The position numbers and the translations under genes are program-made. 38,164 bases of DNA. Source: Verrucomicrobiota bacterium (GTDB lineage: Bacteria > Verrucomicrobiota > Verrucomicrobiia > JADLBR01). The DNA is taken from contig JAKQKQ010000274.1 of NCBI GenBank assembly GCA_029560585.1, forward strand, positions 1 through 38,164. Reading direction: 5' to 3'. Of the stretch, positions 19,036 through 35,648 are shown in pieces. The notes beneath the pieces were generated by a model. That model did not search any database, was not told the origin of the DNA, and saw only the letters and a list, made by a program, of their open reading frames with translations. How positions within the stretch are numbered: the stretch's first letter is position 1; every line of letters begins with the position of its first letter.

Positions 19036-19085
19036 GTAGGAGCCTGCTTGCAGGCGATTCGAATCGCGCGCAAGCGCGCTCCTAC
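19036..19085 (+). repeat. REP-like palindromic repeat, copy 2
   Basis: Two small stem-loops, GCCTGCTTGCAGGC and GCGCGCAAGCGCGC, are separated by GATTCGAATC and enclosed by GTAGGAGC and GCTCCTAC. The overall layout resembles REP/BIME doublets of other bacteria. The other copies are at 611-670 and 33653-33709. Confidence 0.8.
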
Positions 19086-22095: not shown

Positions 22096-23391
22096 ATGCA
22101 GGCGCTCACGGGCTTCCGGGATTTCTTCCCAGAGGCGTGTGCGCGGCGCAATCGGGTTTTTCAGTCGTGGCGGCGGACCGCGTCGCGGCACGGCTTTGTC
22201 GAATACGACGGTCCCCCGCTGGAGAGCCTTGAGCTGTTCACGCGCAAGTCCGGTCCCGAAATCGTCAAACAACTTTATAACTTTGTCGACAAGGGCGAGC
22301 GGGAGGTGGCGTTTCGGGCGGAGATGACACCGACTTTCGCGCGCATGGTGGGGGCGAGGCATCGTGACTTTCGCAAGCCGATCAAGTGGTTCGCGATTCC
22401 CCAGCTGATGCGGTACGAGCGGCCACAGAAGGGGAGGCTCCGGGAGCATTTTCAATTCAATGCGGATCTGGTGGGTTTCGGGACTCCGGCGGAGGATGCG
22501 GAGATGATCGCGCTGCTGGTGGACGCGCTGCGCGATCTGGGCCTGGGTGCGGGCGATTTCCGGGTGCGCCTGAGCAGCCGCGCGGTGTGGCATGCGGCGC
22601 TGGAAGCGATCGGGGTGCCGGTCGGGGCACACGGCGGGGTCTTTGATGTCGTGGACAAGCTGGAGCGGGTTGAGGCGGCGCAGTCGGACGCGAAGCTCGG
22701 TGCGCTGGGGTTGGGCGCTGGGGAGATCGCGAAGGTGCGGGCGGTGTGCGGGGCCGCGGACCTTGGTGCGGCGGCGGCGGCGGTGGGAGGCCTGGGAGAG
22801 GCCGGGGAATGGTTGCAGGAAGTGGTCAGGTCGCTGCAGGGCTTGGGTGCCGGGGATTGCGTGGCGGTGGATCTCGGGATCGTGCGTGGCCTGGCGTACT
22901 ACACCGGGGTGGTATTCGAGGCTTTTGCGTTGGGCGCGGACAGGAAATACGATGGCCGGGCGGTCGCCGGGGGTGGTCGATACGATGATCTGCTGAAAAA
23001 TCTGGCCGGCGTGGCGTTGCCGGCGGTGGGCTTTGGGATGGGGGACGTGGTTTTGGGGCAGTTGCTGGAGGAGAAGGGGCTGGCGGGGGCCGGTGGGGCC
23101 TCGGGGCGCGTATTCGTGGCGTGGCCAGGAGAGGGATTCCGGGAGGCGGCGCTGGGGATCGTCCGGCGGCTGCGGGAGGCGGGGTTCTGCACCGAGTATC
23201 CGCTCCGGTCGCAGGGTCTTGGCAAACAGCTCGAGGCGGCGGAGAACGCCGGTGCCGGCTGCGTGGTGATCGTGGGTGACGATTTGGCCTCTGGGATGGT
23301 GGATGTGAAGTGGATGGCCGATCGACGGCAGGAGCGGGTGGCCGTCGACCGCTTGGAAGACACGCTTGCGCAGTTGAACCCCGCCAACTGA
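22096..23391 (+). CDS. hisS: Histidyl-tRNA synthetase
   Basis: This 431-residue class II aminoacyl-tRNA synthetase charges tRNA-His. Motif 1 region is near the start (LTGFRDFFPE). Motif 2 is RYERPQKGRLREHFQFNADLVG (split: RYERPQKGR / REHFQFNADLVG). The histidine-specific peptide is VRGLAYYTGVVFE at about residues 264-276. GGGRYDDLL and GFGMGDVVL make up the motif 3 region. The C-terminal anticodon-binding domain starts at about residue 340 (GRVFVAWPGEG). A CGGAG ribosome site lies 7 nt upstream. It is probably cotranscribed with the HU-like gene. It sits 106 bp before the His-rich peptide locus, with no obvious terminator between. Confidence 0.97.
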   Translation: MQALTGFRDFFPEACARRNRVFQSWRRTASRHGFVEYDGPPLESLELFTRKSGPEIVKQLYNFVDKGEREVAFRAEMTPTFARMVGARHRDFRKPIKWFAIPQLMRYERPQKGRLREHFQFNADLVGFGTPAEDAEMIALLVDALRDLGLGAGDFRVRLSSRAVWHAALEAIGVPVGAHGGVFDVVDKLERVEAAQSDAKLGALGLGAGEIAKVRAVCGAADLGAAAAAVGGLGEAGEWLQEVVRSLQGLGAGDCVAVDLGIVRGLAYYTGVVFEAFALGADRKYDGRAVAGGGRYDDLLKNLAGVALPAVGFGMGDVVLGQLLEEKGLAGAGGASGRVFVAWPGEGFREAALGIVRRLREAGFCTEYPLRSQGLGKQLEAAENAGAGCVVIVGDDLASGMVDVKWMADRRQERVAVDRLEDTLAQLNPAN

Positions 23392-23454
23392 TTCTTGGCG
23401 GGCAGGCTTGGGATTGAAGTAATACGACTGATCCGCAAGTCACTCGCATTTCCC

Positions 23455-23486
23455 TTGACTTTAGGCGGTGCGCGGACGAACATAAT
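23455..23486 (+). promoter_or_regulatory. Candidate promoter of the RiPP locus
   Basis: TTGACT at 23455-23460 and CATAAT at 23481-23486 each match five of six sigma-70 consensus bases. The 20-base spacer is longer than usual, so confidence is low. If used, transcription would begin near 23493, which disfavours the GTG start at 23498 and favours ATG 23573. Confidence 0.35.
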
Positions 23487-23497
23487 TTACGTCGCGC

Positions 23498-24841
23498 GTG
23501 AGCCACAGTTCGGAGTTGGGAGGGCCGGGGGGAACGGTTAGTAGTGCTGTTACCGGATTAGCCACCTCAAAAATGACTGCGGCGCTGGGCCGTGGTGAGA
23601 ACGGCTATTTTGAGAACATCAGGATGGTCATCGCCAAGGTCACCAGCAGCTGCAACTTACGGTGCGCGTACTGCTGCACTGACGCGGTGCCGATCTCGCA
23701 ACCCGGTGCCGTGATGGCGATGGCCACGCATCGGCATGCCGCATCCCTCCTGATTAGCGGGACGGCGTCGAAGGATCTCCATTGGATCTTCCATGGGGGG
23801 GAACCGATGCTCTTGCCGGTGGCGTGGTACGAGGAGGCCATCGAGCACTGCATTCAAGTCGCCGAATCGAACCCGCGCGTGGAGCGTCTAACCATTGGCA
23901 TGCAGAGCAACCTGACTCGCCTCACCCCCGAGTTCTTGCGGTTGATCAAGCGGTATCGCATCCAGGTTGGCACGAGCCTCGACGGGCCGCCTCGGTTGAG
24001 CGACGTGTACAGGCAGGCGGGGCAGCGCGTCGAGGAGACTATCGATCTCTTGTTTCGGGAGGGGGCGCCGGCGGGTGTCATCGCGCTGATCAACAAGAAT
24101 ACCGTGTGCCACATCGACGAGGTCGTGGACTATTTCGACCGCAAAGGATTCGCGGTGATGTTCAACGCGACCTGCCCGACCGGGCGCGGCATCAGCGTGG
24201 ACGACCTCACCGGCGACGAGCTGTTCGAGGCTAGGCGCGCGATCCTGGAACGCGCCGACCGGGGGGGCAACATCATGCTCCTGGGCCCCGAGGCGATGAA
24301 GCAGATCTATCGGTTTGAGACGGGTCGGCGGGACATGTCCGAGCGCACGTGCCAGGACTACAACTGTGGCGCGGGTGTTTCGATCATCGGGATGGACCCC
24401 AACGGCGACCTGTGGCCGTGCGGGCGCTCCAGCGATGCCGGGCTCGGCAGGTTGGGTAACGTGAACGACCCCGGGACGCTGCGCGATTACCGCAAGACGC
24501 TGCGGGGATTTCATGAGAAGGATGCGTGGTACGCGCGGTGTTTCGGTTGCCCGGCCAAGCTGATTTGCGTGTTTGGCTGCACCGCGTTCGACAAGGAATC
24601 CATCCCGACGCGGGAGATGGAATGCCGCGCGACCCGGCGGCTGTATCAGTATTTCTGCGGGCACCGGGATCTCGTCGCGAGGCTATTCCGCAGGATCGAC
24701 ATCCACGCGCAGAAGATGAAGCAGGAGGTCGCGATCAGAAAGCCGACGCCGCCTTTCCTGAGGTTGCACACCGGGACCCATCCCTGCGCGGATGGCGCCG
24801 GGTGCGCCGTGGGGGCAGCGAAGAGGAATGGAGGGACATGA
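23498..24841 (+). CDS. Radical SAM/SPASM peptide maturase
   Basis: This protein of up to 447 residues is a radical SAM enzyme. C52-x3-C56-x2-C59 (SSCNLRCAYCC) binds the SAM-linked [4Fe-4S] cluster, and FHGGEPM is the SAM-contact GGE motif. The C-terminal SPASM domain matches the published pattern C-x9-15-G-x4-C, gap, C-x2-C-x5-C-x3-C, gap, C, with C290, G303, C308, C348, C351, C357, C361, C376 and C387 binding auxiliary clusters. Such enzymes modify ribosomal peptides through thioether, C-C or C-O bonds. The two next genes encode its likely substrates; its stop overlaps ATG 24838. No separate RRE/PqqD-like domain is evident. The GTG start at 23498 has no ribosome site; ATG 23573 gives 422 residues and may be the true start. 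Family assignment is sure; the reaction is inferred. Confidence 0.93.
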   Translation: MSHSSELGGPGGTVSSAVTGLATSKMTAALGRGENGYFENIRMVIAKVTSSCNLRCAYCCTDAVPISQPGAVMAMATHRHAASLLISGTASKDLHWIFHGGEPMLLPVAWYEEAIEHCIQVAESNPRVERLTIGMQSNLTRLTPEFLRLIKRYRIQVGTSLDGPPRLSDVYRQAGQRVEETIDLLFREGAPAGVIALINKNTVCHIDEVVDYFDRKGFAVMFNATCPTGRGISVDDLTGDELFEARRAILERADRGGNIMLLGPEAMKQIYRFETGRRDMSERTCQDYNCGAGVSIIGMDPNGDLWPCGRSSDAGLGRLGNVNDPGTLRDYRKTLRGFHEKDAWYARCFGCPAKLICVFGCTAFDKESIPTREMECRATRRLYQYFCGHRDLVARLFRRIDIHAQKMKQEVAIRKPTPPFLRLHTGTHPCADGAGCAVGAAKRNGGT

Positions 24842-24942
24842 AACAGTCAGGCAAGAGCAAAGGACTTTTGGGCCGGGCGAAGAAGCCCGGTGTGGCAACA
24901 GGGCCACGGACCCAAAAAACAGAAACAGAAAGAAAACCACAT
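24842..24942 (+). promoter_or_regulatory. Structured, A-rich leader before precursor 1
   Basis: Two short hairpins are visible: CCGGGC/GCCCGG with a GAAGAA loop (24873-24890) and GTGGC/GCCAC (24892-24907). An A-rich tract follows (24910-24940), unusual in this GC-rich region. It may promote translation or set mRNA stability for the abundant precursor. It could also be translated from ATG 24838 as a 35-residue basic extension. Confidence 0.45.
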
Positions 24943-25305
24943 ATGGCAATACTGCAAAGCAATGATGGGAGGTTCTACCAGATCCCGGACGATGAGGCGG
25001 ATCGCTTCCTCGTGCCGGCCGACAAGGTGGAAGAGACGCTGGCGTCTATCGGTGCCTCGCAACCGCAGGGGATGGCTCCGCCGATGCCGTGCGGCACGCC
25101 GCCGGTCGTGATCTATGTCATGGGCGGTACCGTTTCGGCACCCGAGGGCGCGCCGCCCGAGATGGTGGCGGCCTACGGTCACCACGGTCACCACGGCCAC
25201 CACGGTCACCACGGCCACCACGGCGGTTTCGGTGGCGGTTGGTGGGGCGGGGGCTACCCGAACTACAGCAACTACCGAAACTACATGAACTTCTTCGGTT
25301 TCTAA
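24943..25305 (+). CDS. RiPP precursor peptide 1: leader, (HHG)5, four YxN triplets
   Basis: This 120-residue peptide has a leader-like region at residues 1-35 (DGRFYQIPDDEADRFLVPAD) nearly the same as that of precursor 2. A variable linker with one Cys (C50) follows. The core begins at AYG (77-79), with HHG repeated five times (80-94), then GFGGGWWGGG, then YPN-YSN-YRN-YMN (105-116) and FFGF at the end. The tandem aromatic-X-Asn triplets are candidate sites for C-C crosslinking by the radical SAM enzyme just upstream; this is inference from three-residue cyclophane (triceptide) systems. The start is set by alignment to precursor 2. ATG 24838, overlapping the maturase stop, would give 155 residues. 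I do not recognise a named precursor family. Confidence 0.85.
   Translation: MAILQSNDGRFYQIPDDEADRFLVPADKVEETLASIGASQPQGMAPPMPCGTPPVVIYVMGGTVSAPEGAPPEMVAAYGHHGHHGHHGHHGHHGGFGGGWWGGGYPNYSNYRNYMNFFGF
25180..25224 (+). repeat. Five tandem 9-bp units encoding HHG
   Basis: The unit is CAC-CAC-GG(T/C), repeated five times in frame. The units differ mainly at the Gly third base. The equivalent array in precursor 2 has six units, which suggests change in unit number by slippage or unequal exchange. Confidence 0.9.
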
Positions 25306-25342
25306 GAAGAAGCGACATCGGAACGAAAAGGAGACAGGCGAT

Positions 25343-25648
25343 ATGGCAATCATGCGAAGTGTAGACGGCCGGCTGTTCAATGTGCCGGATGATGAAGCGC
25401 CCAAGTACCTGATCCCGGCGGAGAAGGTTGCAGAAACCCTCCGCGCTGCGGGCATCTCGGCGCCCACGGGCGGGCAGCCGGGCGAGCAGGGTGCGGGCCA
25501 GGTGCAGGCGTATGGCCATCACGGTCACCACGGTCACCACGGCCACCACGGCCACCACGGCCATCATGGGGGCTTTGGTGGGTTGTTCATTGGCGGGTAT
25601 CCGAACTATAACAACTACCGGAACTACATGAATTTCTTCGGCTTCTGA
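25343..25648 (+). CDS. RiPP precursor peptide 2: leader, (HHG)6, four YxN triplets
   Basis: This 101-residue paralogue of precursor 1 lies 37 bp after it. The leader DGRLFNVPDDEAPKYLIPAE at residues 9-28 is conserved in pattern. The linker is shorter (PTGGQPGEQGAGQVQ) and has no Cys. The core is AYG, six HHG units (59-76), GFGGLFIGG, then YPN-YNN-YRN-YMN (86-97) and FFGF. The C-terminal NYRNYMNFFGF is identical in the two paralogues, whereas the linker has diverged, so selection seems to hold the leader and the C-terminus. AAGGAG lies 9 nt before the ATG, a stronger ribosome site than that of precursor 1. No double-Gly cleavage site of the C39-peptidase type is at a leader-core border. Confidence 0.88.
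   Translation: MAIMRSVDGRLFNVPDDEAPKYLIPAEKVAETLRAAGISAPTGGQPGEQGAGQVQAYGHHGHHGHHGHHGHHGHHGGFGGLFIGGYPNYNNYRNYMNFFGF
25517..25570 (+). repeat. Six tandem 9-bp units encoding HHG
   Basis: Six in-frame units of CA(C/T)-CA(C/T)-GG(T/C/G) encode twelve histidines. The first and last units use CAT codons, whereas the inner ones are nearly uniform CAC-CAC, as expected if inner units were duplicated recently. Confidence 0.9.
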
Positions 25649-25669
25649 GGCCGGGGATTTTGGGCCGAT

Positions 25670-25712
25670 CCGCCCCGCGTCCCCTCGACATGAGGGGACG
25701 GGGCGGGTCTTT
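25670..25712 (+). terminator. Strong GC-rich hairpin between precursors and exporter
   Basis: CCGCCCC-GCG-TCCCCTC (25670-25686) pairs with GAGGGGACG-GGGCGG (25692-25706), with a 2-base bulge and a GACAT loop, followed by TCTTT. This fits a partial intrinsic terminator. Its place after the second precursor suggests attenuation, giving much more precursor mRNA than exporter and regulator mRNA. Confidence 0.7.
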
Positions 25713-25799
25713 GCGTGAAGCGTGGCGGTGCGTTGGGGAGAGGTGTTTCGCAACCATCGTCTGCGGTGGTGGCGGACTGTTTCGCGGAGGTGATTTTTC

Positions 25800-27638
25800 A
25801 TGGCTTCGATTGACATGGCTGCTGGGCCCTCGGATGTGGGCACGTTGAAAGAGGGGAGTCCCCGTTCGCTCGGCTATTTCCTGAGCGCCTCGTGGAGGCT
25901 GCTCTCTGAGGACGCGAGGCGGGTGGTTCGGCGGACGATGTGGCAATTGCTCATCGCCCGGCTGATCGGGGGCATTGCGCTGATCCTGATGGCGCGCCAG
26001 TCCGGCGTCTTGACGCAGGCGCTGATGCAATCCAGCCCCTGGCTGACGGCATTCTGCGTGTTTGTCGCCCTGACGTTATTGCGGGTGCCGCTGGATTATT
26101 TTCAGGGCTATTGGGCGGAGGCGCTGCGAGAGCGGCTCAGCCGCCTGTTCCAACTGCGGATCTTCGAGTTCCTCCAGGCCCAGTCCGTGGACTTTTTCAT
26201 GGGCCGGAACCCCGGCGAGCTGATGAGGCAGCTGAGCAAGGCAGCCACGGCGGTGCAGTTCCTGCTGTGTGACACCGTCGTGCTCGCCGCGGCGGACGCG
26301 ATCTTCCTGATCGCCTATGTGGCGTACCTTTTCGTGCTGAATTGGCCGCTCACGCTGATGCTTCTGGTGGCGGTCAGCGCCATCCCTTTCATCATCGTGT
26401 GGTTCATCTATCCGACGCTGGAGCGGGTGTCCACCGAGCGGAACGATCTGGACAACCTGTATGGGGGCAAGATGTTCGAGGGCATCATTGGGGTGAAGGA
26501 GATCCAGCTCAACAACGCCCAGGGCTGGATCATCCGGGCGATGCGCGATCTGACCGATCGGCTGATCGGGGCAAATCTGCGCGTGGAGCGCTGGGAGGGC
26601 ATCAACCAGCAGACCACATCGCTCCTCGGTTCCCTCACCATGCTGGTGATCCTTGGCGCGGGGAGCTGGCTGGTGATCACCAAGAGGCTCGCCGGGGGCT
26701 GGCCCGAGCTCTTCATCTTCTACACCTTGGTCCCGAGCGTCTTCGGACTCCTCGTTTCCCTGTGCAGTGCCGCCGCGAGGTACACGGAACTGCGGCCGCA
26801 GATCGGTGAGGGTTTCGATATTCTCGAGACGCGCCCGCGCGTCGTGGATAGGCCCGGGGCGCGCCCGATGCCGCCGCTGAGGGACAAGATCGCCTTCCGG
26901 AACGTGACCTTTGCGTTTTCGCCCGAGGCGCCGCCGGTGCTGCGCGACCTGAGTTTCGAGATCAGGGCCGGGCAGCGCATCGCCCTCGTCGGTCGCCGGG
27001 GCTGCGGCAAGAGCACCATCTTCAATTTGCTGTGCAGGTTTCTGGAGGTCGGGGAGGGGGGCGGGACTATCGAGATCGATGGCGTGGACATCCGGGAGTA
27101 TACGCTCGCGAGCGTGCGGGCGCAGTTTGGCATGGTGACGCAGAAACCATTCTTCAACCAGGCGAGCGTGCGGGAGAACCTCTTGCTGGCGAGGCCCGGC
27201 GCGACGGACGAGGAGATCATCCGCGCGTGCCAGGACGCACAGATCCACGACGTCATCGAGCGGAAGGGCGACGGGGAATCATCGGGGTACGACACCAACG
27301 TGAACGCCTTCAGCGGCGGCGAACAGATCAGCATTGCGATCGCCCGCTGCTACCTGCGCCAACCTTCGATAATCCTGCTCGACGAGCCGCTGGCCTCGCT
27401 GAGCGCGGACGTGGCGAGCGACCTGCTGGTCAGCCTGAAGAAACTGGTGCAGGGGCGGACATGCATCATTATCTCGCACGCGCTCCAGGGGGTGGCCGAC
27501 GTCGACCAGATCTTTGTGCTGGGCTACGGCGGTGACCGGCGCGGCAGGCTAGTGCAGAGGGGGACCCACCAGGAGCTGAAGGGACAGCCGGGCTACTATC
27601 GGGAGCTTTACGAGAAGCAGATCCTGAGCGTTTACTAG
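25800..27638 (+). CDS. ABC exporter, fused membrane and ATPase domains
   Basis: This 612-residue half-transporter has a six-helix type I exporter membrane domain (about 45-330) and a C-terminal ATPase. Walker A is GRRGCGKST (398-406), the Q-loop is TQKPFF, the signature is FSGGEQ (504-509), Walker B is IILLDEP with D528 and E529, and the H-loop is ISHA with H560. Position 2-3 of Walker A is Arg-Arg rather than the common Pro/Asn-Ser, and the signature FSGGEQ lacks the Leu of LSGGQ. There is no N-terminal C39 peptidase, so it does not trim its cargo. It is likely to work as a homodimer exporting the modified peptides. GGAGGTGA lies 6 nt before ATG 25800. Confidence 0.92.
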   Translation: MASIDMAAGPSDVGTLKEGSPRSLGYFLSASWRLLSEDARRVVRRTMWQLLIARLIGGIALILMARQSGVLTQALMQSSPWLTAFCVFVALTLLRVPLDYFQGYWAEALRERLSRLFQLRIFEFLQAQSVDFFMGRNPGELMRQLSKAATAVQFLLCDTVVLAAADAIFLIAYVAYLFVLNWPLTLMLLVAVSAIPFIIVWFIYPTLERVSTERNDLDNLYGGKMFEGIIGVKEIQLNNAQGWIIRAMRDLTDRLIGANLRVERWEGINQQTTSLLGSLTMLVILGAGSWLVITKRLAGGWPELFIFYTLVPSVFGLLVSLCSAAARYTELRPQIGEGFDILETRPRVVDRPGARPMPPLRDKIAFRNVTFAFSPEAPPVLRDLSFEIRAGQRIALVGRRGCGKSTIFNLLCRFLEVGEGGGTIEIDGVDIREYTLASVRAQFGMVTQKPFFNQASVRENLLLARPGATDEEIIRACQDAQIHDVIERKGDGESSGYDTNVNAFSGGEQISIAIARCYLRQPSIILLDEPLASLSADVASDLLVSLKKLVQGRTCIIISHALQGVADVDQIFVLGYGGDRRGRLVQRGTHQELKGQPGYYRELYEKQILSVY

Positions 27639-27664
27639 CGCAGGACACATCGGTACCCTTAGGC

Positions 27665-29341
27665 GTGAATTCCCGTGACGGACAGTTGAGACGGTGGTGG
27701 GGGTCGGCCCTTGCCGTCGGATTGGCGCTGGCGGCTTGCGCGGACCCAAAGTCTCCGGCCGGGGCGAAGGAGCCGTCTGGTCCCAAGCACGCCCTGTACC
27801 GCGGCTACGGGTTTTGGTTCCAGGATCTGACCGGGCGCTTCGAGGCTGCCGCCAACCCGAAGGACGGGCCAAAGAAATATGCGCTGAAGCGCCTGCCGGA
27901 TTTCGATCCTCTCGCGACGGACCTTTACCAGCAGACGGTGCTGATGCTGTCGTCTTCCTACCCGATGACGGATCTTTCGTTCGGTGTTCAGGCATCGGAG
28001 ATGCTGCAGGCCGTGGATGTGATCGTCGCAAACAGCGCCTGGGTGGAGGAGTTCGCGCGGAACGGGTGGTTGGCGACGTTCGACGAATCGGTCTATGGGC
28101 CGATGTTGAAGGAGGCGGGCGTAGAGCCTGTTCGGGCGTCCGTCCCCGGCCAACGAGAGCGGGCGATCTACGGGATTCCCATCACGCGGGCGGCCGATTT
28201 CTTGTTCTACCGTAAGGGCTACTTCAAGGATGCCGCCGAGGCCCGGCGGGCATGGCTGGCTGGGATGACGGGTGAATTTCCGGCCAAGGTGCCGCCGTTC
28301 ATTGTCAGCGACGCGCAGGATATTCACCGCCTGTTCCTTGCGCTGGTGTGGAGCATTGAGCCGGATTGGCCGCGCAAGACCGCCGACAGCTTTAACGTCA
28401 ACACGCCGGCGGCGCGCACCGTGCTCGGTGCGCTCCGGCGATCGGTGCACATCAACGCGCGGGCCGTGGCGGCGCAGCGGGTTCCGTTTCTCGTGGATCT
28501 GAAGCGCCAGGTAAACACGTTCACGGCACAGCCCCGCCCATTCGATCCGGCGGCGGCGGAGATGGGCGGTGCGGCACAGCCGACGTGCTGGTTGCTCTCG
28601 ACCTGGGCCCAACGCATCCTGGTCACCCCGTGGGGTCCACCCGCCCCGTTGAGCGACGTGGGCATCCTGCCACTGACGGCCTCGTCGGAGGCTGGGCGTC
28701 CCGGCGTGTCGTTGGCCGGGGGAAAGTGCCTCGTGTGCAGCCGCCAGGTCGAATCGGATGATCCTGAGGCGGGCGCGGCGAGGGATGTGATCCGCGAGCT
28801 GGTGCGCTACTTGCTCTCGGAGAAGGGGCAGCGCACTTTGGTCTACGATCAGTTCGAGATTCCCGTGCGGGCGGGGTTGCTCAAGTCGCTGACCCAAGAG
28901 GATCTGGCGGCGGTCTTTGGCTCGAGGCACGATTGGTGCGACTACGAGAGCTACTGCGGGGAGGTCAAGGCGGGCATTCGCCCAATCGACGCCCAAAGCC
29001 AGGCCTTGGGCCGGGAGACCTTGGCTTTGTTGAGCGAGATTGGTTCCGCGATGGATGATCCCACGCGGGTGGCGATGCGCCAGAATCCCCTCACGATAGG
29101 CCAGTGCATGGCGCTGGATGTCTTCTTATGCAGGATGCTCGATCCGTCCGGAGCCCATGCCCACGAGGGGGTGGCGAATCAGGATGCCGAGGACAAATTT
29201 CTCGAGGGGGCGCTTGACAGGTTCCAGCGTATTCTGGAGGCGGGGCAGCGGTTCATAGCCGCGCGGCCAGGGATCGCGGACGATTCGTCGCCGGGTGCCG
29301 GGGCCAAGGGCGAGGGCGCGGGCACAGGGGAGGGGCGATGA
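27665..29341 (+). CDS. Solute-binding-protein-like lipoprotein
   Basis: This 558-residue protein has a lipoprotein signal (AVGLALAAC, lipobox LAAC, Cys25) and is predicted to be anchored outside the inner membrane. The body resembles family 1 extracellular solute-binding proteins, with VDVIVANSAWVEEFARNGWLATFDE, ERAIYGIPITRAADFLFYRKGYF and a C-terminal helical region with YLLSEKGQRTLVYDQFEIPVRAG. There is no importer permease near it, so it may present a ligand to the adjacent kinase or bind the exported peptide. An orphan periplasmic binding protein is also part of described GRRM radical SAM peptide systems, a useful parallel. The start is GTG 27665 with a weak ribosome site. Its stop overlaps the kinase start (ATGA). 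Confidence 0.78.
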   Translation: MNSRDGQLRRWWGSALAVGLALAACADPKSPAGAKEPSGPKHALYRGYGFWFQDLTGRFEAAANPKDGPKKYALKRLPDFDPLATDLYQQTVLMLSSSYPMTDLSFGVQASEMLQAVDVIVANSAWVEEFARNGWLATFDESVYGPMLKEAGVEPVRASVPGQRERAIYGIPITRAADFLFYRKGYFKDAAEARRAWLAGMTGEFPAKVPPFIVSDAQDIHRLFLALVWSIEPDWPRKTADSFNVNTPAARTVLGALRRSVHINARAVAAQRVPFLVDLKRQVNTFTAQPRPFDPAAAEMGGAAQPTCWLLSTWAQRILVTPWGPPAPLSDVGILPLTASSEAGRPGVSLAGGKCLVCSRQVESDDPEAGAARDVIRELVRYLLSEKGQRTLVYDQFEIPVRAGLLKSLTQEDLAAVFGSRHDWCDYESYCGEVKAGIRPIDAQSQALGRETLALLSEIGSAMDDPTRVAMRQNPLTIGQCMALDVFLCRMLDPSGAHAHEGVANQDAEDKFLEGALDRFQRILEAGQRFIAARPGIADDSSPGAGAKGEGAGTGEGR

Positions 29342-31494
29342 AGTCGCGCGGGCAGGGCGGCGTGTGGCGCGAAGGCCCAGGGATCACGCTCAGGAGGCGC
29401 CTGTCGCAACATCTGGTTGTCTTGAGCATCGCATTTGGCGTGGCGGCATCGGGGATGATCTTCGTGGGTTTCCAGTTCTTTCGCCCGATGCTCAACGATC
29501 TTGAGAAAGATTGGGTCGAGAGGGAATTGAAGGCCATACGATCCGTTGGTGGCCTGATATCGGCGGTGAATACGGACCGGTTGATGGCGCTGTTTGATTG
29601 TTCTGCCGAGCAGGCGGTGAGCCTCTGGCTCGGTGTGCGGGAACACAAGGAGATCGCCTACTCGCGGCTGTTTAATACCGTAAATGCGGAGATCGCGACG
29701 GTCTACCGCGACGGGCTCACGTTCGCGGATCTGCCGGCGCCCTTCAGGCTGGAGTGGGATAGGAGCGTCTATCCGCCGCGGATCTTGAATCACGCCGCTT
29801 ACGCGTCACTCCAGCCGGTGGCGGGGCCGCGTGGGCAGTTTAGCGAACGCCGCCTGATGCTGTATCGGGAAAGCTTCGGGCGGATGTTCCCGATCGGTTT
29901 CTTGGTGGTGGGATTCGAGAACGCGCCGACCGATCTGGCGGCGGCGGACAGGGCGGCCGAGAGCTGTCTCGGGGGACAGTTGCTGCCCGGGGGGGTTAAT
30001 ATCGAGGGCTGGCCAGCCGGCCGGGTCCTGAGCGACGATGCGCCGCTCGTCCGATATTCGTACAACATGCGCGATCTGGTACTGTACTTGGCCGACGTGA
30101 GGCAGGGTACCGACAACCTGCTGGGCATCACCGTTTACAACAAGAATGGCATGCCGTTCTTGAGCGAGCAGCAGACGTCGCCCTCTTTCCAGTTCACATC
30201 CGGGTCAGAGGGTGATTCCTCTCTGGTGCGAATGAGCGCACATGTCCGGCCGAGGGTGGGGACGCAAGGGCCCCGGAGAACGGATTCGGGTTCGGCGCAG
30301 GCCTACGATGTGTTCACGCCCGTTTTCAACCATGGCGCATTGCAGGGAATGATCGCGTTCGGGTTGAGGGGTGAGGCGTCGGTGCTGGGGCCGGTCAGGG
30401 ACACGCTGTTCCGCGTGCGCGCGTACATGAACCGGATGACGGTCGCGCTGATGGCCGCGATGGTCCTGGTGAGCGTTCTCACTGCCATGAGACTCCGGCA
30501 CCACATAGCGCTGCCATTGGAGGCGATCGCCGAGGCGTCGCGGGATTTTGTCTGTGGCGACCCCGCGGATCCCGAGCACGCGAGGCGATTTCAGGCGTTG
30601 TGCGACATGCGGCACTACAGCCGCGAATCGAGGCGCCTCTGCGAGTCGTACGCCCACATGGTCTCCACGATCCAGAGGACGCTGAAGGAGAAGGAGGAGA
30701 CCTACGTTGCGCTCGCCCTGAAGGAGAAGCAATTGTTCGCGTCGCAGCGGCAGTCGCTGCTGGGCGTGGTGGCCGCGGGCGTTGCCCACGAGATCAAGAA
30801 CGCGATGAACCCGATCAAGCTCCGTGCCGAACGGATGTTGCTCGCGCACGAGATGGGGCGCGACCCGGGCCTGCGGGAGGGATTGAACCTGATCGTGCAG
30901 AGCGTCGGCCGATGCGCGGAGCTTTCGAACAAGCTGAGCGCCTTCGCGAAGCCGGCGGACATCGGCTCGCATTTTCAGTTCGACCTGAATGAGACCCTGC
31001 GCGACGCCCTGTCCATGGCCCACGACGCGCTCGCGACCGCGCACGTCAATGTTGCTACCGACCTTGGGGAGATTCCCCGGATCAAGGGCAACCCAAGGGA
31101 GCTGCAGCAGGCAATGATCAACTTCTTGCTGAACGGTCGTGATGCGATCGTTGACGCGTGCAAGGGCGGGACACGGGCGGGGGGGAACATCTCCGTCCGG
31201 ACGGCGGTCCGGGACCGGTTCATCGAGGTGGGCATTACCGACGATGGCTGCGGGATGAGCGAGGACGTGAAGAGCAACCTCTTCGTCCCGTTTTTCACGA
31301 CGAAAGAGCCGGGCAAGGGGACGGGGTTGGGGATGGGGATCAGCCAGGGCATCCTCCAGGCCCACGGGGCGGAGCTGGGTGTCGACAGCGAACCGGGGCG
31401 CGGGACCACGATCACAATCCGATTGCCGGTGGCTGAGGCGACGACTGCGTCCGGGGCTGGTGCCGCGGGCGCAAAGGGGGCGGGGGCCGTTTGA
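29338..31494 (+). CDS. Membrane sensor histidine kinase
   Basis: This 718-residue kinase has TM1 at about 22-48, an extracytoplasmic sensor region of about 310 residues, TM2 at about 366-386, a HAMP-like linker with a coiled coil (about 388-470) and a C-terminal kinase core. The H-box is VAAGVAHEIKNAMNPI with phospho-acceptor His484. The N-box is NFLLNGRDAI with N599. The G1 box is DDGCGM, the F-box FVPFFTTKEPGKG and the G2 box GTGLGMGI. The core is of the NtrB/ZraS-like HPK4 type. The large sensor domain is not one I recognise. Strong GGGGAGGGG precedes ATG 29338, which overlaps the stop of the solute-binding gene, so these two are translationally coupled and probably sense together. Its partner is the next gene. 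Confidence 0.92.
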   Translation: MKSRGQGGVWREGPGITLRRRLSQHLVVLSIAFGVAASGMIFVGFQFFRPMLNDLEKDWVERELKAIRSVGGLISAVNTDRLMALFDCSAEQAVSLWLGVREHKEIAYSRLFNTVNAEIATVYRDGLTFADLPAPFRLEWDRSVYPPRILNHAAYASLQPVAGPRGQFSERRLMLYRESFGRMFPIGFLVVGFENAPTDLAAADRAAESCLGGQLLPGGVNIEGWPAGRVLSDDAPLVRYSYNMRDLVLYLADVRQGTDNLLGITVYNKNGMPFLSEQQTSPSFQFTSGSEGDSSLVRMSAHVRPRVGTQGPRRTDSGSAQAYDVFTPVFNHGALQGMIAFGLRGEASVLGPVRDTLFRVRAYMNRMTVALMAAMVLVSVLTAMRLRHHIALPLEAIAEASRDFVCGDPADPEHARRFQALCDMRHYSRESRRLCESYAHMVSTIQRTLKEKEETYVALALKEKQLFASQRQSLLGVVAAGVAHEIKNAMNPIKLRAERMLLAHEMGRDPGLREGLNLIVQSVGRCAELSNKLSAFAKPADIGSHFQFDLNETLRDALSMAHDALATAHVNVATDLGEIPRIKGNPRELQQAMINFLLNGRDAIVDACKGGTRAGGNISVRTAVRDRFIEVGITDDGCGMSEDVKSNLFVPFFTTKEPGKGTGLGMGISQGILQAHGAELGVDSEPGRGTTITIRLPVAEATTASGAGAAGAKGAGAV

Positions 31495-31507
31495 AAGAGA
31501 GGAGCTT

Positions 31508-32704
31508 ATGCAAAGTGATCTGAATGTCCTGTTGGTTGACGACCAGCGCGAGAACCTGGTCGAGTACGAGGGCATCCTAAGGCAGCTGACCGACTATTCG
31601 GTTCGCGCGGTCGACAGCAGCGCCGAGGCGATCGAGCTGTGCCGCAAAGAGCATTTCGATGTCCTGGTCACGGACGTGCGCATGCCCGGCAAGAACGGCG
31701 ACGAAATGTACGCAGAGATCAAGAAGATCCTGCCCGAGATCCGCTGCATCGTGATAACCGGTTTTCCCGGGCAGGATGCGCCGATAAACTTTCTCAAGCT
31801 CGGCGCCCATGATTTTCTATTCAAGGCCGAGTTCAGTCCGCAGACGCTGCTTCGGTCGATCGACAACCAGGCACAGATCGTCCGCCTGCGCCACGAGACC
31901 GATGTGCTACAGGGGAGGCTGGCGCATTTTCACAAGACGGTGCAGGAGATCATGTCCACGGTCCAGTCCGTGACGCGCCTCTCGCGCGCGCCGGAGCTGA
32001 CGATGTCTTTGCATTATTTCGCGGAGCTGTCGGCGCTAATCTCGGGAGCGCCCGTCGTGGCGATATTCCTGATGGAGCCGGACGGCAGTTCTCTCGTGGC
32101 GAGGGCGGCGGTCGGGGCGGAGCCGAATCCCACGCCCGTGCCGCTGGGGCGGGGGCTGGCGGGGCGGGTTGCGCAGTCGGCGCGGCTGACCGCGCAGAGC
32201 CGGGCGGAGTCGGGCGGCTGGCCGGGCGACGAGGTGGGGGGATCGCTGGAGGAGGGGAGGCGGTCGGGCCTTGGCATCCCCCTTGTGGCGCAGGGTGTCT
32301 GCATCGGCGTGCTGGAGCTCTTCGACAAGGAGCGGTTCGAGCCAGAGGATGTTGAGCTATTGTCGCGCCTGGGGGCGCTCTGTTCCTCTACCGTGGACCT
32401 CGTCAACGCGGCGCAGATGGCGGACAATCTCTTGCTTCGCGCGCTGAAACTGGCCGCGGAGACGGCATCGGTCGAGACCGGTGGCGTGGGCGAGGCGCCC
32501 AAGGACGTATTCAGCGGCATGGCCGAGACGGTCAAGCAGATCGATCTGGTGGGCAGCGGCGGGCGGGCGACAGCGCTGGCCGAACAGATTCGGCGGGTGT
32601 GTGAGTTCGGGCAGCCCGCAGCGGAGTTCTGCGAGCGGATTTTGGCCGGCCTGCTTGCGATGCTCCAGAGCCAGCGGGAGGCCGTTCCAGAGATCAGATT
32701 CTGA
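31508..32704 (+). CDS. Response regulator with receiver and GAF domains, no DNA-binding domain
   Basis: This 398-residue protein starts with a complete receiver domain: acidic pair D11/D12, phospho-acceptor D56 (VLVTDVRMPG), T84 and K106. A short coiled-coil-like linker follows (about 120-150), then a GAF domain of about 155-300 (GAPVVAIFLMEPDGSSLVARAAVG, split: GAPVVAIFLMEPDG / LVARAAVG; GIPLVAQGVCIGVLELFD) and a helical C-terminus. No helix-turn-helix, AAA+, GGDEF or phosphatase motif is present, so it is not an obvious transcription factor. It may act through protein binding or feed back on the kinase. ATG 31508 has GGAG close upstream, 13 bp after the kinase stop; the longer frame overlaps the kinase and was rejected. 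Confidence 0.88.
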   Translation: MQSDLNVLLVDDQRENLVEYEGILRQLTDYSVRAVDSSAEAIELCRKEHFDVLVTDVRMPGKNGDEMYAEIKKILPEIRCIVITGFPGQDAPINFLKLGAHDFLFKAEFSPQTLLRSIDNQAQIVRLRHETDVLQGRLAHFHKTVQEIMSTVQSVTRLSRAPELTMSLHYFAELSALISGAPVVAIFLMEPDGSSLVARAAVGAEPNPTPVPLGRGLAGRVAQSARLTAQSRAESGGWPGDEVGGSLEEGRRSGLGIPLVAQGVCIGVLELFDKERFEPEDVELLSRLGALCSSTVDLVNAAQMADNLLLRALKLAAETASVETGGVGEAPKDVFSGMAETVKQIDLVGSGGRATALAEQIRRVCEFGQPAAEFCERILAGLLAMLQSQREAVPEIRF

Positions 32705-32710
32705 TCTCGG

Positions 32711-33544
32711 ATGCCTCCCATCGCGACAATGAGCGAGCAGCTCCCATCACCTTTCGGTCAACTTGATCCCGCGGAATTCCTGCGCGGGGCGACTGGGCGA
32801 GGCGTGAAGGTTGCCGTCGTGGACAGTGGGGTCGACAACAAGCATGCCGATCTTTCGGATCACGTGAAGGGGGGTGTGCAGGTCGATGAGGCGGGGGGCC
32901 AGATCGTGTTTAAACCCTACGATGGTCAAGATGCGGCGGGCCACGGCACAGGCTGTGCGGGTGTGATTGCACGGCTGGCGCCGGAGGCCGAGATCTACAG
33001 CGTGCGCGTGCTCTCCTGCGTCGGCGTGGGCGCCGACGGGTACAAGTTCGCCGGTGGAAAACCGAAGCACATGATCATGGGCGTTGATTGGGCCATCGAG
33101 AACTGCCACGTGATCAATGTGAGCAATGGCCTGTTGGTCAGCGAGGGCGGCCAGTATTTTGAGACATTTCATCGGCTCGTTGAGAAGGCGTACTACCGCG
33201 ACCGCATTCTTGTGGCGGCGGGCGAGAACGAGGGGATGCCCAGCTACCCGTCGGTGCTATCGAATCTCATCAAGGTCTACTGGTCATCCTTCAAAGACGC
33301 GATGCAGTTCGCGTACCAGCTTCGGCCGAAGACGTTCACGGAGTTCACGGCGAATGGCAGCTACGTGAAGGTGCCGCAGCCCGGCGGTGGATACATCTAC
33401 GAGATAGGCAGCAGCTTCGCGACGCCGCATATCAGCGCGATTTGCGCGCTCATCCTCTCGAAGTGGCCGGGGCTGAAGCCCTTTGAAATCAAGACTCTCC
33501 TCTATTCGATGGCGCTGAAGGATGTGGCCGGGGCGAAACGCTAG
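32711..33544 (+). CDS. Subtilisin-like (S8) protease without signal peptide
   Basis: This 277-residue S8 protease has all three catalytic residues: D38 (VAVVDSGVD), H78 (AGHGTGCAGVIA) and S235 (GSSFATPHISA). The oxyanion Asn appears as N173 in VAAGENEG, where the usual motif is AAGN, so one extra residue is inserted. There is no signal peptide and no inhibitory propeptide of normal length, so it should act in the cytoplasm. In many RiPP pathways, S8 proteases remove leader peptides; here it is the likely leader protease, as the exporter lacks one. It begins 6 bp after the regulator stop. ATG 32729 is an alternative start. The TAG stop is the first triplet of a repeat element. Confidence 0.88.
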   Translation: MPPIATMSEQLPSPFGQLDPAEFLRGATGRGVKVAVVDSGVDNKHADLSDHVKGGVQVDEAGGQIVFKPYDGQDAAGHGTGCAGVIARLAPEAEIYSVRVLSCVGVGADGYKFAGGKPKHMIMGVDWAIENCHVINVSNGLLVSEGGQYFETFHRLVEKAYYRDRILVAAGENEGMPSYPSVLSNLIKVYWSSFKDAMQFAYQLRPKTFTEFTANGSYVKVPQPGGGYIYEIGSSFATPHISAICALILSKWPGLKPFEIKTLLYSMALKDVAGAKR

Positions 33545-33742
33545 CCCGGAATTTCACAGCCTGGCAGCTATGAAGAATCTGGATCAGACGTCATGCCCAG
33601 TGCGGCGGCCCGACGGCGGGCCTTCGGGGCACCACCGGGGGTGAAATGAGACGTAGGAGCGCGCTTGCGCGCGATTCGCGCATGGAGTCGCCTGCAAGCA
33701 GGCTCCTACGATTCGGTGTCTGAGTTTTCGAGTCAGGCTGGC
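33543..33742 (-). repeat. Composite intergenic repeat, copy B (inverted relative to copy A)
   Basis: Read on the minus strand this gives GCCAGCCTGACTCGAAAAC, TCAGACACCGAAT, the REP-like palindrome (33653-33709), GTCTCATTTCACCCCCGGTGG, a spacer longer than in copy A, and the GCTGTGAAATTCCGGGCT arm. The opposite arm has decayed (CCAGATTCTTCATAG). The block order equals copy A at 19000-19174. Confidence 0.75.
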
Positions 33743-33872
33743 GGTGGCCGCGCCGGGCCTGTCCTGCGTTGGGGGTTCACCCAGATCCTCGGCCGGCGAT
33801 CTCGGGTCACTGGATGGGCGGGGCAGTCCCTATCCCTTTGACGTGGGGCGGGGATGCCGCTAAACGGGCTTG
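33545..33872. other. 328 bp intergenic region before aspS
   Basis: The first 200 bp are composite repeat copy B. The remaining 130 bp must hold the aspS promoter; I see no convincing -35/-10 pair, no coding frame and no T-box-like features. Confidence 0.6.
33653..33709 (-). repeat. REP-like palindromic repeat, copy 3
   Basis: GTAGGAGCGCGCTTGCGCGC, GATTCGCGCATGGAGTCG and CCTGCAAGCAGGCTCCTAC form the same doublet of stem-loops as copies 1 and 2, with a 7-base insertion in the centre relative to copy 2. Confidence 0.8.
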
Positions 33873-35648
33873 ATGCTCCGGACACATCATTGCGCGGCAT
33901 TGCGCGCGGAAAACGTTGGCCAGACCGTGACCCTTTGCGGGTGGGTGCATTCGCGCCGCGACCACGGCGGGGTGCTTTTCGTGGATCTTCGGGATCGAGA
34001 GGGAGTGACGCAGGTGGTCTTCAACCCGCAATTGGCGACGGCTGCGGCGGAGGCGGCGCGCGGGCTGCGGGCGGAGTTCGTGATCCGGGTGGAGGGCGAG
34101 GTGGTCCGCCGATCGCCCGAGACGGTCAACGCGAAACTGCCGACGGGCGAGATCGAGGTGGCGGTCAAGGCGCTTGCCATATTGAACCGGTCCGAGGTGC
34201 CGCCGTTCCCGCTGGACGAGGCGATCAGCAACGAGGATTTGCGTTTGGAATACCGCTATCTGGATCTGCGGCGCGCCGAGATGTTCCGCAATCTTGCCGT
34301 GAGGCATCGCGTGGTGAAGGCGGTGCGGGATTACTTCGACTCGGAGGGCTTCCTTGAGGTCGAGACCCCGATCCTCGCAAAAAGCACCCCTGAGGGGGCA
34401 CGGGATTTTCTTGTGCCGAGCCGGCTGAATCCCGGGCGATTCTACGCGCTGCCCCAGGCGCCGCAGCAATTCAAACAGTTGCTGATGGTGGCGGGCCTGG
34501 AGCGGTATTTCCAGATCGCGAAATGTTTCCGAGATGAGGATCTTCGCGCGGATCGGCAGCCGGAGTTCACGCAGGTGGACGTGGAGGTGTCGTTCTTGGA
34601 GAGGGACGATATCATCGGCTGGACCGAGGGGGTGCTAAGGGCGATGTTCAAGGCCGGGCTGGGGGTCGAGGTGCCGACGCCATTTCCGCGGATGAGCTAT
34701 CGCGAGGCGATGGACCGGTTCGGGTCGGACAAGCCGGACACGCGTTTCGGGATGGAGCTGACGGACGCGGGGGACATCTTTCGCGCGAGCGGCTTCAAGG
34801 TGTTTCGGGAGACGCTCGACAAGGGAGGCGTGGTCAAGGCGATCAACGCAAAGGGATTTGCCTGTGTGACCACGGGGCAGATCGAGCGCCTGACGGAATT
34901 GGCCAAGCGGCATGGCGCGAAGGGCCTGGCTTTCATCAAGGTGGAGGGGGGTGAGTGGAAGTCGCCCATCGTGAAGTTTTTCTCGGAGGCTGAGAAAAAG
35001 GGTCTCTCGGAACGACTGGGCATCGAGGAGGGCGACCTCGTGCTTTTCGGGGCGGACAAATGGTCGGCGGTTTGCGAGGTATTGGGGCGGATCCGGCTCG
35101 AGATCGCCGCGATGCAGAAGTTGACCGAGGGCAGCAGGGCCCTGAATTTCTTGTGGGTGCTGGATTTTCCGCTGTTGGATTTCAGCGTCGAGGAGAACAA
35201 GTGGAATGCGGTTCATCATCCGTTCACGCGGCCGAAGGCGGAGGACGTGCCGATGTTGGACAAGGGCGAATACGGCGCGGTGCGCGCCGAGGCGTATGAT
35301 GTGGTGCTGAATGGTGTGGAGATCGGGGGCGGGAGCCTGCGCATTCACGAGCCGGATCTCCAGGCGAAGATGTTTGGCATCCTGGGGGTGGGCCCGGAGC
35401 AGCAGGAGGCGATGTTCGGGCACATCATCAAGGCTCTGGGGTTCGGGGCCCCGCCCCACGGGGGGATCGCGCTGGGACTGGATCGGGCCGTCATGCTTAT
35501 CTGCGGGGCGGAGAGCATCCGCGACGTGATGGCGTTCCCGAAGAACAACAGGGGCCAGGATCTGATGTGCGACGCGCCGTCTGCTGTCGACGCCAAGCAG
35601 CTGAAGGAGATTTACATTCGGACGGTGGGCGGCGACGCGGCGTCCTGA
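33873..35648 (+). CDS. aspS: Aspartyl-tRNA synthetase
   Basis: This 591-residue class II synthetase charges tRNA-Asp (or Asp/Asn in a non-discriminating form, which cannot be decided here). An N-terminal OB anticodon-binding domain comes first (VTLCGWVHSRRDHGGVLFVDLRD). The catalytic domain follows, with RYLDLRR, FLEVETPILAKSTPEGARDF (exactly the motif 1 region), FKQLLMVAGLERYFQIAKCFRDEDLRADRQPEFTQVD (motif 2, quoted here in part: CFRDEDLRADRQPEFTQ) and GGIALGLDRAVML (motif 3). The bacterial GAD insertion is present, consistent with the length. TTG 33870 just before ATG 33873 is possible. In many bacteria aspS directly follows hisS; here the RiPP locus lies between. Confidence 0.97.
   Translation: MLRTHHCAALRAENVGQTVTLCGWVHSRRDHGGVLFVDLRDREGVTQVVFNPQLATAAAEAARGLRAEFVIRVEGEVVRRSPETVNAKLPTGEIEVAVKALAILNRSEVPPFPLDEAISNEDLRLEYRYLDLRRAEMFRNLAVRHRVVKAVRDYFDSEGFLEVETPILAKSTPEGARDFLVPSRLNPGRFYALPQAPQQFKQLLMVAGLERYFQIAKCFRDEDLRADRQPEFTQVDVEVSFLERDDIIGWTEGVLRAMFKAGLGVEVPTPFPRMSYREAMDRFGSDKPDTRFGMELTDAGDIFRASGFKVFRETLDKGGVVKAINAKGFACVTTGQIERLTELAKRHGAKGLAFIKVEGGEWKSPIVKFFSEAEKKGLSERLGIEEGDLVLFGADKWSAVCEVLGRIRLEIAAMQKLTEGSRALNFLWVLDFPLLDFSVEENKWNAVHHPFTRPKAEDVPMLDKGEYGAVRAEAYDVVLNGVEIGGGSLRIHEPDLQAKMFGILGVGPEQQEAMFGHIIKALGFGAPPHGGIALGLDRAVMLICGAESIRDVMAFPKNNRGQDLMCDAPSAVDAKQLKEIYIRTVGGDAAS

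Follow-up and report, generated by a model that had tools for sequence, protein, structure and literature searches.

A probable triceptide-like RiPP cassette with a Tyr-x-Asn precursor core in an uncultured Verrucomicrobiota bacterium

The window analyzed here (38,164 nucleotides of a Verrucomicrobiota genome) carries, between hisS (22096 to 23391) and aspS (33870 to 35648), a cassette belonging to a RiPP-type family that is real, that is undescribed in the literature we searched, and whose maturase falls within no curated triceptide family. The account that we consider probable is that of a horizontally transferred, triceptide-like RiPP system in which an S8 protease would remove the leader before export and which would have a sensing arm of its own.

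Gene content and likely transfer of the cassette

Eight plus-strand genes fill positions 23498 to 33544 in the order SPASM radical SAM maturase, two paralogous precursors, ABC exporter, lipoprotein, histidine kinase, receiver-GAF protein, and S8 protease. All of the genes proposed in the initial annotation were found where it had placed them and on the same strand. The overlaps that it described do occur, but its short gaps do not extend to the 151 nt between the second precursor and the exporter. Features are listed by window position.

23392..33826, no strand: approximate span of the insert between hisS and aspS, from comparison with a genus mate and another family
23498..24841, +: SPASM radical SAM maturase (Pfam Radical_SAM, 1.7e-12)
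24838..25305, +: precursor A1, probably 155 aa from ATG 24838; alternative start at 24943 (120 aa)
24943..25041, +: conserved leader of A1, MAILQSNDGRFYQIPDDEADRFLVPADKVEETL (alignment of 13 leaders; pN/pS 0.32)
25165..25176, +: V-x-A-Y motif of A1 (VAAY), where the leader region may end and the product begin
25255..25290, +: core of A1, YPN-YSN-YRN-YMN, then FFGF
25343..25648, +: precursor A2, 101 aa, without Cys
25343..25441, +: conserved leader of A2, MAIMRSVDGRLFNVPDDEAPKYLIPAEKVAETL (leader alignment)
25502..25513, +: V-Q-A-Y motif of A2
25598..25633, +: core of A2, YPN-YNN-YRN-YMN, then FFGF
25800..27638, +: ABC exporter half-transporter (Pfam ABC_membrane and ABC_tran)
27665..29341, +: solute-binding-protein-like lipoprotein with a lipobox-like LALAAC (Pfam SBP_bac_1, 6.4e-06)
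29338..31494, +: membrane histidine kinase with a long extracytoplasmic domain (Pfam HisKA and HATPase_c; alignment)
31508..32704, +: receiver-GAF protein, probable start ATG 31508 (Pfam Response_reg, 4.6e-21; GAF_2, 4e-10)
32711..33544, +: S8 subtilase, likely start ATG 32729 (Pfam Peptidase_S8, 1.2e-25)

One other verrucomicrobial family of the same class is represented by seven examined genomes, and all of them carry the maturase (64 to 77% identical), with two or three precursors adjoining. The whole order, from maturase through three precursors, ABC exporter, lipoprotein, kinase, and receiver-GAF to S8, lies on one contig in L019, L021, and L022, and L017 has the same order up to the start of the receiver gene, where the contig ends. 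In fragmented assemblies the remaining genes are together on other contigs, again in the same order. Scanning 84,980 species with a profile of the leader gave 11 loci, ten of them in seven MAGs (mostly labelled Verrucomicrobia, all carrying the maturase) and one a chance match to a transporter (L035, Rubrivivax). The initial annotation had looked to recurrence of the leader beside SPASM enzymes and the same neighbors, which profile scan and synteny bore out, and had named precursor homologs mainly lacking a radical SAM neighbor as evidence against it; homologs occurred only in maturase-bearing genomes, nearly all adjoining the maturase. On these sequence comparisons the cassette is a real unit, and conserved synteny together with codon-level constraint rules out chance or artefact as the origin of the gene set.

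The interval between hisS and aspS measures about 10.4 kb in the window genome; the genus mate (G001) has ~350 bp there, containing a single small frame, and in the other family the two genes are adjacent. Compared with that family, HisS of the window genome is 51 to 53% and AspS 60 to 62% identical. Within the cassette, S8 is the most conserved protein (83 to 86% in six of the seven relatives, ~70% in the most distant member), followed by the ABC exporter (82 to 83%), receiver-GAF (70 to 76%), maturase (64 to 77%), kinase (57 to 67%), and lipoprotein (49 to 63%). Contamination from the other family was ruled out because both contig flanks match the genus mate, to which HisS is 81 to 82% identical. 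Since the hisS-aspS site is empty in the genus mate and in the other family and most cassette proteins exceed housekeeping conservation, horizontal transfer of the intact cassette is likely and is the simplest reading, and the empty site marks the gene set as the unit that moved. No gene for a transposase was recognized in the insert, and a plasmid search for the maturase found none. REP-like palindromes that start with GTAGGAGC occur in the window at 33652 to 33710, just beyond the cassette, and at 19036 to 19085; this octamer has 5 matches in the window versus 0.5 expected.

Precursors and the conserved Tyr-x-Asn tail

The description of twin precursors holds for the window, with its two paralogs, but relatives usually have three. 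Upstream of MAILQS, A1 has an in-frame basic extension (MKQSGKSKGLLGRAKK...ERKPH). Because this basic frame is open upstream in all eight first-position precursors, each with an ATG (the ATG segment aligned in seven) that usually lies behind a strong ribosome-binding site, translation of A1 most likely begins at ATG 24838, which overlaps the maturase stop (ATGA); the MAI start at 24943 is thereby displaced as the sole start. The extension is under no more than moderate purifying selection (pN 0.11 to 0.21, pS 0.21 to 0.46), and the second and third precursors have no basic upstream segment. The leader consensus, S-x-D-G-R-x-Y-x-V-P-D-D-E-A...L-V-P-A-D-K-V-x-E-T-L, matched no NCBIfam or Pfam model.

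Three elements are fixed across 26 distinct precursors: the leader, V-x-A-Y (present in nearly all), and, in 24, a C-terminal (YxN)3-5 tail in which x takes 11 residue types. An aromatic residue comes after the tail, and then usually G-W, G-F, or G-Y. The C termini of A1 and A2, initially annotated as identical, are nearly so, with 17 of the last 18 residues matching (GGYPN-YSN/YNN-YRN-YMN-FFGF). In a codon comparison of 17 precursors, all with four YxN units, the Tyr and Asn codons differed only synonymously (pN 0.000, pS 0.49; pairwise values, which are not independent), the x position was nearly free (pN/pS 0.88), and the leader was constrained (pN/pS 0.32). None of the 17 copies was dropped by the search pattern, so the zero pN at Tyr and Asn is not an effect of copy selection.

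Between V-x-A-Y and the tail, most precursors have a Gly/His-rich linker; it is Pro/Gly in L023, and its His part is short in L022 and L021. His richness, which the initial annotation named for both precursors, is thus a property of the linker and not the defining feature, since the linker is Pro-rich in L023 while the YxN tail is kept. As read from these alignments, the Tyr-x-Asn tail is the conserved core, and the His-rich stretch is not.

Related precursors were also found in other settings. Two of the ten loci from the leader scan are satellites in two genomes (L029, 8048 to 9891; L031, 9513 to 11376); each has a further pair of YxN precursors and, after them, the catalytic part of the kinase as a soluble copy, with no maturase nearby. 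Another of the ten, L034 (5740 to 6417), has a precursor leader with V-Q-A-Y fused to an ankyrin-repeat protein. A locus from another family (L024, 236 to 6697) encodes two SPASM maturases (28 to 33% identical), GAF, S8, a sigma-factor-like gene, and a precursor of similar layout, in which a leader with S-K-E-G-K precedes a VSAF placed like V-x-A-Y, a core of WFHRD in triplicate, and a terminal DFGW. Comparison with L024 suggests a wider family with exchangeable cores.

Predicted maturation, export, and sensing

The maturase frame opens with GTG at 23498, and the likely start, placed from relatives whose maturases begin ~15 residues ahead of IRMVIAKV, is ATG 23573 (422 aa). The enzyme carries a CNLRCAYC motif and SPASM cysteines, including CFGCPAKLICVFGC; its cluster motifs are intact, and the cysteines are invariant in an alignment of 11 homologs. 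Short gene-encoded precursors with a conserved leader and a separate variable core adjoin a modifying enzyme, and these traits, together with the signs of transfer as a unit, support the initial claim of an unfamiliar, self-contained locus of RiPP type. The pairing of this SPASM maturase with an aromatic-x-acceptor core, YxN in 24 of 26 precursors, is that of triceptides: Aro-x-Asn is a published signature of three-residue cyclophanes (PMC9062424, PMC11002830), and triceptide enzymes act on an aromatic residue at i and Asn at i+2, with a free middle residue (PMC11002830). We propose that the maturase would recognize the conserved leader and repeatedly link the ring of a Tyr at i to the side-chain beta carbon of the Asn at i+2, giving up to four consecutive Tyr-x-Asn cyclophanes near the C terminus (three to five in relatives).

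Against the cyclophane reading, the maturase reaches the NCBIfam cut-off of no cyclophane maker, and its best score is to the thioether maker PapB (107 bits versus a cut-off of 340). It scored 94 bits against DynA (cut-off 450) and lies outside the curated cyclophane-forming families, in bits versus cut-off: GrrM (71/310), AmcB (70/425), YhhB (65/445), FxsB (57/370), and XyeB (41/450). Neither maturase nor precursors reached any NCBIfam cut-off, and a PDB profile search with the maturase returned only known SPASM enzymes. With PapB and the quinohemoprotein maturase among its nearest NCBIfam models, the enzyme might instead make another radical modification (a Cys thioether, an epimerization, or a Tyr-derived redox cofactor), which we regard as unlikely: A2 has no Cys, which excludes thioether chemistry for that precursor, and strict Tyr and Asn, a free x, and a period of three fit i to i+2 crosslinks better than single-residue chemistry.

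The S8 protease has an intact and, by alignment, conserved triad (D38-H78-S235) and is probably cytosolic, since no signal peptide was seen. It scored 71 bits against NCBIfam QhpE, below the cut-off of 165, and a PDB profile search with it returned only ordinary subtilisins. QhpE is an S8 protease that cleaves the leader from radical-SAM-crosslinked QhpC while the latter is still in the cytoplasm, and QhpF exports QhpC afterwards (PMC7876137). By analogy, the cassette S8 would cut off the leader after crosslinking, perhaps near V-x-A-Y, and the ABC exporter, whose membrane and ATPase parts are joined by no peptidase domain matched in Pfam, would then release the product, in the order of QhpD, QhpE, and QhpF.

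The lipoprotein and the kinase, whose gene start overlaps the preceding gene's stop, might monitor the exported peptide or its cargo outside the cell and signal to the receiver-GAF protein. Together they are reminiscent of LuxP-LuxQ or TorT-TorS arrangements, a likeness to which structural search lent no significant support. The models predicted for the lipoprotein (pLDDT 39) and for the sensor part of the kinase (pLDDT 48) were not good enough for a ligand to be recognized, and Foldseek with these low-pLDDT models gave no match at E 0.001 or better. In PDB profile searches the lipoprotein had a marginal sugar-binding match, and the kinase sensor had none.

The receiver-GAF protein ends in a helical-looking tail, and no DNA-binding domain was detected in it with Pfam. 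Three other radical SAM systems (L024, L036/L037, and L066 to L068) have a stand-alone GAF gene immediately ahead of a small S8 gene, as do 16 of 20 sampled Verrucomicrobiae loci in which no SPASM enzyme was detected. This steady partnership suggests, as a hypothesis, that receiver-GAF acts on the S8 protease. A more specific proposal is that the two-component part gates maturation and not transcription: the kinase would phosphorylate receiver-GAF, whose GAF part would bind and switch the adjacent protease and so place leader removal under an outside signal. The lack of a detected DNA-binding output domain and the GAF-S8 adjacency at L024, L036, L066, and the 16 Verrucomicrobiae loci speak for it; as the argument is one of gene adjacency, and many receiver proteins without DNA-binding domains work otherwise, we consider it doubtful.

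Because the GAF-S8 pair is common without a SPASM enzyme, the S8 need not be RiPP-specific, and whether it is a dedicated leader protease may be questioned. Its presence in the operon by happenstance, as a general GAF-linked signaling or stress protease, would agree with this wide occurrence but seems rather improbable, given that the S8 travels with the cassette at 83 to 86% identity (six of seven relatives) versus 51 to 62% for HisS and AspS. We give similarly little credence to the fullest combination, in which the RiPP system is mobile, an external signal passed via lipoprotein, kinase, and a receiver-GAF adaptor switches the leader protease and with it maturation, and the undescribed maturase makes runs of four adjacent Tyr-x-Asn cyclophanes. 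Least probable is a secreted His/Gly-rich, metal-binding peptide or protein modified on its His stretch in the manner of HxsA, for which there are HHG repeats in both window precursors and a weak HxsA4 match (20.6 bits versus a cut-off of 55); against it, L023 lacks the His stretch and L022 and L021 have a short one, while the YxN tail is kept.

Several other GAF-S8 loci were recorded. The same genome (L036, 4326 to 13004 of G000:C272) and its genus mate (L037) carry a second, different radical SAM cluster, encoding a B12-binding radical SAM enzyme, a second radical SAM enzyme, an ABC exporter, a SPASM radical SAM enzyme, a 490-aa protein with no Pfam match, GAF, and S8; a leader-pattern search found no precursor there. 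At L066 (3000 to 11000), L067, and L068, a GAF-S8 system includes several radical SAM enzymes along with a pair of small basic peptides that are nearly identical (MSKKT...VKVVADGSNCVTLVFPEG...), likely a further RiPP type. At L098 to L117 (Verrucomicrobiae) the GAF-S8 pair is conserved, in several cases preceded by a small gene for 77 to 80 aa and in a few followed by a predicted NTPase; a search with a maturase-homolog profile detected no SPASM enzyme at these loci.

Comparison with known systems

The precursors and maturase of the cassette form an apparently undescribed family from uncultured Verrucomicrobiota, and the core predicts an unusual chain of adjacent Tyr-Asn rings. A literature text search with core and leader letters found no relevant paper among the matches listed; it covered little of the subscription literature, where an earlier mention is possible. 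Presence in all examined genomes of one family suggests that the cassette may serve a standing function and is not a sporadic weapon. It looks complete (synthesis, trimming, export, and sensing) and seems to move whole, so its role is testable in laboratory hosts. A hidden control module may also be at work in the GAF-S8 pair, given its recurrence across several radical SAM systems.

His-Xaa-Ser (Hxs) systems likewise have His-rich small proteins beside a radical SAM gene, but the cassette has one maturase and no HxsB/HxsC pair, His is not conserved across the family, and the HxsA-type precursor score is 20.6 bits versus 55. PapB, a ranthipeptide maturase, is the best-scoring NCBIfam model, yet the 107 bits fall far below 340 and the cassette substrates are not Cys-based, A2 having no Cys-containing core. 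The QhpD-QhpE-QhpF system of quinohemoprotein amine dehydrogenase likewise combines a radical SAM crosslinker, a cytoplasmic S8 leader protease, and an efflux ABC transporter, a likeness drawn here from the genes. In contrast to it, the operon has no dehydrogenase subunit genes, no Cys-containing gamma subunit as substrate, and no flavin monooxygenase; A2 lacks Cys; and both S8 and the radical SAM enzyme fall below the NCBIfam cut-offs, including that of the QhpE type. Triceptide systems (XncB, OscB/GrrM, MscB/FxsB, YxdB, HaaB, and YhhB) likewise pair a SPASM enzyme with short aromatic-x-acceptor precursors (PMC9062424, PMC11002830). Unlike them, the cassette has four contiguous Y-x-N units, a leader without an NCBIfam or Pfam match, and its own lipoprotein, kinase, receiver-GAF, and S8, and reaches no NCBIfam family cut-off. 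A new triceptide-like RiPP family, with QhpE-like removal of the leader by S8 before export, is the best reading of these likenesses and differences.
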